Source of the DNA: a virus
Length of the DNA: 27,818 nt
Virus record (IMG/VR): IMGVR_UViG_3300020205_000768
Span: 1-27,818 of that record
Strand: one strand, 5' to 3'
The notes beneath the pieces were generated by a model. It worked only from the letters and a program-made list of their open reading frames with translations, did no database searches and was not told the DNA's origin. A program made the position numbers and the translations under genes. Below, piece by piece: positions 10,568-14,625 of the stretch; position 1 is the first letter of the stretch, and each line of letters opens with the position of its first letter.

Positions 10568-10705
10568 ATAAACATTTTTAGTTAAAGTAAAAAATAGTAA
10601 TGCTATATTATCCACAAAATTCAACTCATTAATGCTCAATCTCTTTGCTATTAATTTCATATAATATATTTTTACATTACAAACCAATTTATAAAAGAAC
10701 TACAT
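10568..10705. other. AT-rich gap with weak promoter candidate
   Basis: This stretch is strongly AT-rich and carries no frame. The best promoter candidate is TTTG (10644-10647), 17 nt, then TATATTTT (10665-10672), with the last base of the -7 box and the spacing both off consensus. A promoter is expected here because the terminator at 10527 should stop readthrough, but evidence is weak. Confidence 0.3.
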
Positions 10706-11966: not shown

Positions 11967-13520
11967 ATGGCAATTTCAACAATACCAGGTTTAACTGGTT
12001 TCACGTATGCTCGTGTGGCTTCTATGGATAAACGTGCTGTAGGCAAGCTTACAGATTCGAATCACCTAGAAAGTTTCCACAGTACAGAGCCTGCTGATTA
12101 TGATAAGAAAATAATCAGTCTTTACACTCAGAGCTCATTGTACAGCAATGACTTCTTGGACATGATTAACAAGTCCACTCCTTATTACATTGATAATAAC
12201 AGTGATGCTTGGAAATGGCAGGTTCAAGTTCCTTACAAATTCCCTAAAATTATCAATGTTCCTCAAGCAACACTTGATCTTTTGAAGCCTGGTATTGATG
12301 GTCAAGAGTTTTCTCTTGTTCTTGATACTAATGAGTTTTCTAAGAATGCAATTGTTTCTGTAGGTTCTCGTCAGTATGGTCCTAGGTTCTACGTTGTTAA
12401 AGATCCAGTTCCTTGGAACATGGGCTATCTTTATTCTTTCACTCTAGTTAGTGACAATCCAACTATAGATTTCGTAAGTTCTCAGTTCCTTGCTGTTGGT
12501 GTTGAACTTGAATTAGTTGATGCTGCAATTGGTGAATTCGATCAAGACTTATTAGGTCTTCCTCGTTTGGGTGAGCAAATCACAATGTTTGAATCTTTAG
12601 GTTCTGCATATGGTTATGAGCACAAAATCACTGAGTGGGCTGATGACAAAATGATGGTTGATGCTTCTGGCAAACCTTTGGACATCTTGGTTTATGCTCC
12701 ACAAAGACGTAACCAACTTCCTCTAACTAGGAATGATGTTAAATGGGAACCATTCATTGAGTTCTGGATGCGTAAGTCTATGCTTGAATTGAAAGTTAAG
12801 CGTATGATTTGGAGCAAGCCTGGAACTGTTAAAACAAATGGTTCTAAGCAAGAATTGAAGCGTACATCTGCTGGTGTTTATCACAGGATGCGTAACAATG
12901 GTAACTTGGTACAATATAATCGTGGTGAATTCACTGCAAACTTGATTCGTTCTGTATTTGGTGATTTGTTCTATCGTAGGGTGGATGTTAAAGACAGACG
13001 TGTTAAAATGTACACCAACGAAGCTGGATTTGATGTATTCCAACAAGCTTTGAAAACAGACGCTTTGAACAGTGGTCTTACTTTCATGGCTGATTCTGGA
13101 AATCGTTATATGCAAGGCGAAGGTCAGCACATCACTTACAACTTTGCTTTTGATAGCATGGTTACTCGTGAAACTGGTCGTGTTGAACTTATTCACTTGA
13201 AAGAATTAGATCTTCCACAATCTAATCTTGAATTTGGTCAGAACAAGAAGTCCACTCCTGTATTCATGGTATTTGATGTAAGCCCTATGAGCGATGGTTC
13301 TATGGTTAACAACATCAGAGAAGTGAGAATGAAAGGTGCTCCTTCTATGACTTGGGGATATATCGATGGTACTCGTCATCACTTAGGTTTTGCTAAATCT
13401 CAAGGTATGTCTAGTGCTAACAAATTCCCTGGATATGAAATCTGGATGAAAGACCGTTGTGATGTATTCATTGAAGACTTGTCTCGTACAGTTTTGATTG
13501 AAGAGATTCCACAGTTCTAA
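11967..13520 (+). CDS. Major capsid protein
   Basis: The 517-residue length, position after portal and scaffold, and overall pattern match crAss-like major capsid proteins (HK97 fold). No signal or membrane segment is present. Codon use differs from the small genes: Arg is very often CGT, Val GTT, Gly GGT and Ala GCT, a bias expected for the most abundant virion protein. The gene starts at ATG 11967 after an A-rich leader and is followed by an 11-bp terminator. The antisense strand shows several shadow frames but no credible gene. Hundreds of copies build the icosahedral head. Confidence 0.9.
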   Translation: MAISTIPGLTGFTYARVASMDKRAVGKLTDSNHLESFHSTEPADYDKKIISLYTQSSLYSNDFLDMINKSTPYYIDNNSDAWKWQVQVPYKFPKIINVPQATLDLLKPGIDGQEFSLVLDTNEFSKNAIVSVGSRQYGPRFYVVKDPVPWNMGYLYSFTLVSDNPTIDFVSSQFLAVGVELELVDAAIGEFDQDLLGLPRLGEQITMFESLGSAYGYEHKITEWADDKMMVDASGKPLDILVYAPQRRNQLPLTRNDVKWEPFIEFWMRKSMLELKVKRMIWSKPGTVKTNGSKQELKRTSAGVYHRMRNNGNLVQYNRGEFTANLIRSVFGDLFYRRVDVKDRRVKMYTNEAGFDVFQQALKTDALNSGLTFMADSGNRYMQGEGQHITYNFAFDSMVTRETGRVELIHLKELDLPQSNLEFGQNKKSTPVFMVFDVSPMSDGSMVNNIREVRMKGAPSMTWGYIDGTRHHLGFAKSQGMSSANKFPGYEIWMKDRCDVFIEDLSRTVLIEEIPQF

Positions 13521-13534
13521 AAATAAAAATAAGA

Positions 13535-13565
13535 AGAGCCCTCTATAAATTAGGGGGCTCTCCTT
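13535..13565 (+). terminator. Terminator after the capsid gene
   Basis: An 11-bp stem (13535-13545 with 13551-13561, one G-T pair) around the TAAAT loop, followed by a weak T-containing tail (CTCCTT). The stem is GC-rich at its base. It begins 14 nt after the capsid stop codon. The short U tract suggests a partial terminator that may allow some readthrough into the next genes. Confidence 0.7.
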
Positions 13566-13570
13566 AAACT

Positions 13571-13629
13571 ACAGAGTGTTGGATTGGGGTGTCTCCCATT
13601 CGCTATCCCTTCAATGGGAATCGCTCTGC
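13571..13629 (+). ncRNA. Candidate structured RNA element
   Basis: A 57-nt GC-richer island. An outer 7-bp stem CAGAGTG (13572-13578) / CGCTCTG (13622-13628) has one G-U pair. It encloses an inner 7-bp stem TCCCATT (13594-13600) / AATGGGA (13613-13619) with a 12-nt loop. GGGGT (13586-13590) before the inner stem can pair with ATCCC in that loop (13605-13609), giving an H-type pseudoknot. It lies between the capsid terminator and the ATG at 13660. It is too short for a tRNA and I recognise no known riboswitch class. It may be a cis-acting leader of the 321-residue gene or a processed small RNA. Confidence 0.45.
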
Positions 13630-13659
13630 AACTCAAAACCAAAGTTAAAATAACTAAAT

Positions 13660-14625
13660 ATGGGCAAAATCGGGAAAATCTCCACAATAAAAAAGGAGTA
13701 TAATAGTTCTCAACTTCAGACAATGCAAGGTGGTCTAGCACAAAAAGGTATGACAAGAATCCCTGGTACAGGTGTATTTAAGTATCCTTATAAAGAACTC
13801 GATGGACAATACAGAACAGGATTAAATCCTAATGCTGCATACATCCAAAGAATTCAAGATCTTACTGAGAAAGAATTAGAAATCGAACGTGTTACAAAAT
13901 TAAAAGCTAAGCTTGAGGCTGCATTGAGTGTAGACCTTGGTCCTCGTGCTACATTTTGGAACAGTGGTTTAACCTCTTCTCAATACGATGAATTACACAT
14001 TCAACCTGTTAAACTTTTGGATGGTGATAATTTCTTTGATCTGAACCAACCAATGCAAGAACTAGCCTTCTCATGGCTTAGGGTTCATCCAACAATTGCA
14101 AGCTCTTATCAAGCCTGGGAACGTGGTGAATATCCTGCTGACATACAATTTTATGTTGTAGATGATGAGATTGAAAGTGCTGTAATCTTTAAGAAGAAAC
14201 AAATTATCAACAAGGCAATTAGCAAGTTTGATGGTATGACTCCTGAGAAGAAGCGAAAGGTTGCAAGACTATTAGGACTCCCTGTTACTGATAACACTAA
14301 AGAAGAAATTGTTTACAACCTTGTTGATAATGTTATTAAAGAAACAGAATTTAAAACAGGTAAATTCCAAGGCTTATCTACAGTGGAAGTGTTCAATCGC
14401 TTTGCTGATATGAAGGAAAATTTGCTCCATATTAAAGATCTTGTTAGACAAGCAATAAGCCATTCTATATATAGAACTAAACCAAACGGTAAAGTTTATG
14501 AGGGTGAATTTGAATTAGCTCAGGATGAAGAGGATCTTGTAAAATCTCTTGCTGATGATGATAACCAAGATTTACTTCTTACGTTAGAACAAAAACTCAA
14601 GACTAAAAAATTAGCATCTGTATGA
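13660..14625 (+). CDS. Conserved virion-module protein (321 aa)
   Basis: I recognise this as the kind of protein found directly after the capsid gene in crAss-like phages, but cannot give a firm function. The N-terminus is basic with 'QGGLAQKGMTRIPGTGVFKYPYKELDGQYRTGL', then a charged coiled coil (residues 64-90, LTEKELEIERVTKLKAKLEA). A middle domain has 'PMQELAFSWLRVHPTIASSYQAWERGEYPADIQFYVVDDEIE'. The rest is helical with an acidic C-terminal part (EDLVKSLADDDNQDLLLTLE). It is probably a head-completion or head-tail connection protein. It ends in an ATGA overlap with the ring-like gene, so the two are translated together. Confidence 0.65.
   Translation: MGKIGKISTIKKEYNSSQLQTMQGGLAQKGMTRIPGTGVFKYPYKELDGQYRTGLNPNAAYIQRIQDLTEKELEIERVTKLKAKLEAALSVDLGPRATFWNSGLTSSQYDELHIQPVKLLDGDNFFDLNQPMQELAFSWLRVHPTIASSYQAWERGEYPADIQFYVVDDEIESAVIFKKKQIINKAISKFDGMTPEKKRKVARLLGLPVTDNTKEEIVYNLVDNVIKETEFKTGKFQGLSTVEVFNRFADMKENLLHIKDLVRQAISHSIYRTKPNGKVYEGEFELAQDEEDLVKSLADDDNQDLLLTLEQKLKTKKLASV

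Follow-up and report, generated by a model that had tools for sequence, protein, structure and literature searches.

A conserved three-way-junction RNA between the capsid gene and the next virion-region gene of crAss-like phages

Behind the major capsid protein gene of a crAss-like virus and its relatives lies a plus-strand RNA under selection for a three-way-junction fold. The junction has an invariant bulged G and an arm capped by a UUCRRU loop, and about 28 nt separate it from the start codon of the next open reading frame, whichever that is. The element was analysed in the IMG/VR record IMGVR_UViG_3300020205_000768, of which the window, that is, the whole stretch of virus DNA under analysis, comprises 27,818 nt. 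The head genes of the window are crAss-like and include a terminase, a P22-like portal and a capsid protein matching the Pfam family Crass_capsid. The gap containing the element is bounded by the capsid stop at 13520 and the start of a gene for a 321-residue protein at 13660, and the element thus precedes this gene as originally predicted (Table 1). A profile of the 321-residue product gave no match in the PDB, and the naming of the downstream genes as neck/tail therefore follows from gene order and PHROG names.

Table 1. Coordinates of the RNA element, its parts and its neighbours in the window
Feature	Position	Strand	Details
Major capsid protein gene (Pfam Crass_capsid, PF23898)	11967-13520	+	protein-family match
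Long GA/CU-armed hairpin 3' of the capsid stop codon, without a U-run ("terminator" of the original prediction)	13530-13566	+	fold
Three-way-junction RNA element	13571-13631	+	covariance model R1 (window sequence included in the model), 74.7 bits, E 5.5e-21
P1, 5' strand CAGAGUG	13572-13578	+	7 bp with 13622-13628
P2	13579-13605	+	upper stem 13582-13589/13594-13601, lower stem 13579-13581/13603-13605
Bulged G, 3' side of P2	13602-13602	+	invariant in the main class, 134/134 full-length sequences
P3	13606-13619	+	13606-13609/13616-13619; hexaloop UUCAAU 13610-13615 (consensus UUCRRU, T-loop-like)
P1, 3' strand CGCUCUG	13622-13628	+	
Conserved C-N-A directly 3' of P1	13629-13631	+	C 133/134, A 133/134
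A-rich leader without Shine-Dalgarno, ending AACTAAAT before the start codon of the 321-aa gene	13632-13659	+	
321-aa virion-region gene, PHROG 16383 (unknown function), downstream neighbour of the element	13660-14625	+	

Fold and covariation of the element

A compact, GC-rich RNA fold had been predicted at this site, and a stable one is indeed present, with a minimum free energy of -21.5 kcal/mol for the element region (z -2.5, with 2 of 200 shuffles equally good). The minimum-energy fold of this region is, however, already unlike the structure drawn at first, in which two nested 7-bp stems were combined with a five-pair GGGGU/AUCCC pseudoknot. The outer of the two stems is retained as P1, which encloses P2, the stem bearing the invariant bulged G, and P3, a 4-bp helix with the UUCRRU cap. 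The lower stem of P2 is mostly not a standard stem in the window, where the pair G13581-C13603 has a probability of only 0.12.

Protein searches for relatives led to a set of 162 sequences, of which 154 had a complete gap, 98 of these gaps being distinct; the elements taken from the gaps gave 87 distinct sequences, which were aligned with MAFFT (alignment A1). In this alignment 93.0% of the cells of the junction are paired, compared with a shuffled mean of 70.6%, double-change cells number 404 versus 107.9 after shuffling, and changes on both sides are found in 21 of the 22 junction pairs. Pairing extends over 98.9% of the cells in P1 (7 bp, both-side changes in 6 of 7 pairs), 89.1% in P2 (11 bp, both-side changes in 11 of 11 pairs) and 93.7% in P3 (4 bp), and RNAalifold, run unaided, returned the same three helices minus the lower P2 pairs. 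Covariation was also assessed with a tree-aware test in which substitutions are shuffled along the tree, an implementation of our own that is R-scape-like and not R-scape itself. When run on 87 sequences (528 substitutions), it placed eleven junction pairs at the top of all column pairs, six of them at E<0.05. With 134 sequences and 725 substitutions, seven of the 22 junction pairs reached E<0.05 and ranked first to seventh of all pairs, the nine top-ranked column pairs were all junction pairs, and 107 same-branch compensatory events were spread over 21 of the 22 pairs. The other 15 pairs were individually below significance, in part because the outer pairs of P1 hardly vary. Under this R-scape-like null, compensatory change exceeds the phylogenetic expectation, and the element constitutes a conserved structured RNA family.

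Compensatory change among relatives had been proposed as the check on the original prediction, and it is the three-way junction that passes, whereas the pseudoknotted structure fails. The pairs of an H-type pseudoknot inside the 7-bp stem can be drawn in the window sequence, but the inner 7-bp stem (13594-13600/13613-13619) is paired in 64% of the cells in the 87 relatives and has window pair probabilities of 0.00 (to two decimals), the main helix of the pseudoknot is paired in 61%, the nested part of the fold is 7.5 kcal/mol worse in the window (-14.0 vs -21.5 kcal/mol), and the best pair of either helix has E ~775 in the tree-aware test with 134 sequences. The loop-upstream pairing is neither conserved nor covarying, and the probability that the element belongs to this class is close to nil.

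Over the 22 pairs, G-U cells number 155 and A-C cells 24. Since a minus-strand RNA would give the reverse, the selected molecule is plus-strand RNA, in the sense of the head genes, and an element acting at the DNA level or a minus-strand RNA is disfavoured. About ten unpaired letters are conserved, including an A just 5' of P1 and the C-N-A just 3' of it, the C and the A of which are each present, in a second count, in 97 of 98 sequences. In the P3 loop of the 134 full-length sequences, U46 is found in 133, U47 is invariant (134/134) and C48 is found in 130, while the fifth base is G in 23. In the T-loop motif, a purine from another part of the RNA inserts into a UUCRA-type loop. The UUCRRU loop appears to resemble it, and the bulged G three pairs up P2 could, judging from its invariance, be the base that slots in.

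Occurrence and genomic setting

Covariance model R1, which counts the window sequence among its 87 members, finds one site in the window at 74.7 bits, the next best scoring 10.0 bits. Each of 30 longer records likewise has a single strong site (30/30), the only second rows having E values of 0.42 and 0.72; no second copy stood above noise in the window or in these records. A DNA pattern scan of viral contigs listed 80 loci, 63 with a strong R1 match and 17 without, and all 63 strong matches lie at the gap between the capsid and 321-aa genes (within the fetched stretch, a detected 321-aa gene is missing in L219 and L248 and a detected capsid gene in L182 and L207). A second pattern without the P1 letters picked out 41 stretches, 40 of them in the same gap and the remaining one without either neighbour gene.

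The model also matched 69 of 71 loci reached by walking from a more distant capsid gene, and 71 of 88 loci in a further set, the 17 misses in the latter being eight outgroup loci (L368-L375), eight loci L376-L383, and L429, in which P3 is changed. Both neighbours were present at 398 of 455 loci, which gave 199 distinct gaps; the locus set is biased in that L174 and later loci were fetched by an element pattern and that one contig is often represented by several overlapping loci. A simple descriptor of P1, P3 and the loop is satisfied by 190 of the 199 gaps and by 3 of 895 shuffled shorter gaps. Among the nine gaps in which it fails, L096, L151 and L429 hold variants recognisable by eye and the other six hold none. 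These six distinct gaps of the clade (L335, L360, L377, L378, L380 and L382) lack the element and contain just the hairpin and the leader, and it was not found in the Leptolyngbya phage, eight relatives of the Leptolyngbya phage or Cellulophaga phage phi17:2, which indicates that the element is not essential to the layout.

Several variants help to delimit the core of the structure. In a 49-nt subclass, P1, a short P2 and a UUYGAU-capped P3 are kept and no clear bulged G is present; inspection by eye shows P2 to be nearly missing in L331, and L321 to retain the bulged G and UUCGAU on new stems. The three-arm shape recurs in L367, where the stems are wholly different and UUCGAU is kept; L367 gave no R1 match, its descriptor score of 29 was reached by 0 of 2000 shuffles, and its place and shape point to homology. 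Together these variants indicate that the P2 tips are dispensable and that the core consists of the closing stem and the capped arm. L367 (JACIXZ010000023.1), the sole genome-collection match, is a crAss-like capsid region in a MAG labelled Tissierellales and may be a mis-binned phage contig; this label was not accepted as evidence on the host.

The element had been described as following the capsid terminator. A strong hairpin does lie just upstream, and the relatives have a counterpart of it, with a helix-to-P1 linker of 2-8 nt in 167 of the 190 descriptor-positive gaps; its supposed nature as a terminator is not borne out, as it is not a GC-rich hairpin followed by a U-run and is absent from the output of a consensus terminator scan. 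In 165 of the 190 gaps, no T run within the 30 nt preceding P1 is longer than 3. On the downstream side, the first ATG is found 24-39 nt after P1 in 167 of the 190 descriptor-positive gaps, with a mode of 28; the descriptor is misplaced in some gaps, e.g. L030, L050 and L053, where the distances are 98-101. In sixteen gaps, the element and the 321-aa gene are separated by an inserted ORF of 102-157 aa. In these, the inserted ORF starts 14-30 nt after the element and the start of the 321-aa gene is 353-512 nt away, and the retention of the element despite the insertion indicates a tie to the transcript and not to the 321-aa start codon alone.

The inserted ORFs (L099:4737-5045, L387:2035-2490 and those of 14 other gaps) take over the element and the leader, and the 321-aa gene gets a new leader. 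The inserted proteins of L099 and L387 are presumably HNH-like, as judged by their Cys/His pattern; Pfam gave only helix-turn-helix and sigma-70 region 4 matches for the L387 insert and no match for that of L099. Similar leaders of the form AAACCAA ... AACTA(C/A)AT are present in the window at 10681-10705, before a 411-aa gene, and at 13636-13659, before the 321-aa gene, both after an intergenic gap, and AAACCAA occurs 19 times in the window versus 6.8 expected.

Extra structured-looking inserts are found between the upstream hairpin and the junction in the L126, L036 and L135 gaps, and the gap seems to gather modular RNA hairpins. A second small hairpin-like motif, around CC-N-(U/C)AAGA(A/U)C(A/U)G inside an outer stem, has 20 matches in the 199 distinct gaps (L010, L036, L040, L050, L053, L056, L072, L077, L099, L120, L126, L133, L206, L216, L315, L325, L387, L405 and L438). 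Its usual place is just 3' of the capsid stop, with L072 and L077 having it behind the three-way junction as well, and no Rfam family reached gathering score for it among the loci scanned. Among L002-L161 the capsid protein is ~93-100% identical, and the 321-aa protein (~75-96%) and the adjacent RNA stems vary far more.

Proposed role and alternative explanations

The element likely acts in cis, since it is a sense RNA that has a fixed place, is present in one copy and is kept in the transcript despite an intruding ORF. Our preferred reading, taken in a broad sense and held with about even confidence, is that the neck/tail transcript carries a new cis-acting RNA, either a leader or an intercistronic element, located at the border of the capsid and neck/tail cistrons in aquatic crAss-like phages. 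Directly behind the capsid hairpin, the fold would form in mRNA that is either read through or processed, and the P3 loop would probably dock on the bulged G, as the invariance of both suggests, to give a compact body. This body might then act on the downstream transcript, either as a protected 5' end after cleavage in the short A-rich linker or as a binding site for a phage or host protein, with the outcome that neck/tail gene expression would be set apart from the much larger capsid output. Because the upstream hairpin mostly lacks a U-run, read-through with cleavage or protection at the border appears to fit better than plain termination, and the fixed distance to the next ORF favours a 5' leader over a capsid 3' end. 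As originally suggested, the element could bear on the expression of the connector genes relative to that of the capsid.

A translational operator or riboswitch, in which a phage protein (e.g. an autogenously acting capsid or neck protein) or a small ligand would bind the junction and gate initiation ~28 nt downstream, is possible and distinctly less probable. The spacing to the next start codon is fixed, the invariant unpaired G, UUC and C-N-A would suit recognition, and phages are known to use bulged-purine operators, but the element is also kept in the 16 gaps with the distant 321-aa start, and no Rfam riboswitch family matches. It is unlikely that the capsid/neck transcript is cut to release the element as a stable small RNA with a function in trans. 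A compact fold between unstructured A-rich linkers would agree with such a product, but there is no conserved single-stranded seed beyond the 6-nt loop and no U-run after P1, and the distance to the downstream ORF is constant; a base-pairing sRNA in particular is disfavoured because no long single-stranded stretch is conserved.

Equally doubtful is that the junction represents a new functional class that would physically separate the capsid from the neck/tail messages, whether as a minimal self-cleaving ribozyme or through being read by RNA polymerase or a nuclease; if true, it would be what sets virion stoichiometry across a widespread aquatic group of crAss-like phages. Taken by itself, a new small self-cleaving ribozyme separating the two cistrons would be quite improbable. 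A three-way junction with about ten conserved unpaired letters, including those on both sides of P1, might be expected of one, but the 49-nt subclass has no clear bulged G, and the sole ribozyme family in a permissive scan was RAGATH-13 (Rfam RF02688), at a chance-level 11.8 bits compared with a gathering score of 80 (E 8.9). It also seems very improbable that, by analogy with put of HK022, RNA polymerase reads the element as a processive antitermination RNA where the neck/tail unit begins, for although a structured RNA with a bulge would stand early in a long late unit, it comes after and not before the nearest hairpin, and no downstream terminator series is shown by the terminator scan, which is consensus-based only.

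The covariance model, the natural deletion set and the insertion set together make it directly testable how capsid output in these phages comes to exceed that of connector protein so greatly. In ~190 distinct gaps a tightly defined RNA persists at a single place while nearly every paired letter changes, next to a capsid protein that is ~87-100% identical.

Comparison with known RNA families and systems

A survey of candidate structured RNAs from microbiome comparative genomics (PMC8040213, Genome Biol 2021) includes covarying motifs near phage genes with unknown function. These motifs and the element are alike in being covarying RNA near phage genes, and the words "capsid" and "crAss" are absent from the main text of the survey. 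Searches of an open-access paper library listed no description of the element, and an unnamed earlier listing is possible.

At the gathering threshold, Rfam 15 (4227 families) gave no matches in the whole window or in 20 relative loci, and the known nucleolytic ribozymes in Rfam likewise had none at gathering score. Permissive Rfam scans over the element returned only sub-threshold chance matches, among them miRNA families at chance level. The MS2 operator (RF02359) had a sole match of 11.1 bits, on the opposite strand and with a gathering score of 40, and RAGATH-13, of which the element is not a member, shows a loosely similar stem order in the permissive alignment. ARAGORN found no tRNA or tmRNA in the window or in L367, and the scans are thereby in agreement with the earlier view that the element is neither a tRNA nor a known riboswitch.

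Some likeness to the acceptor and T-arm of tRNA can be seen in the 7-bp closing stem beside a short arm with a UUCRA-type loop, within a total of ~57-61 nt. While tRNA has a 7-nt T-loop, an anticodon arm and a CCA end, the element has a loop of 6 nt closed mostly by C-G, G as the fifth loop base in 23/134 sequences, 1-2 nt between P3 and P1, no anticodon arm and no CCA, and the resemblance in shape is a lead only. The put RNA of HK022 is an antitermination RNA of two stem-loops; like put, the element is a structured phage RNA that opens a transcription unit and carries a conserved bulge, but it consists of one three-way junction 3' of a hairpin. MS2-type coat-protein operators share with it a bulged purine in a stem near a virion gene, the element differing in being a three-way junction. 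With its fold corrected, the element is well supported as a structured RNA that is new as a family and of a known general kind, the cis-acting phage RNAs.
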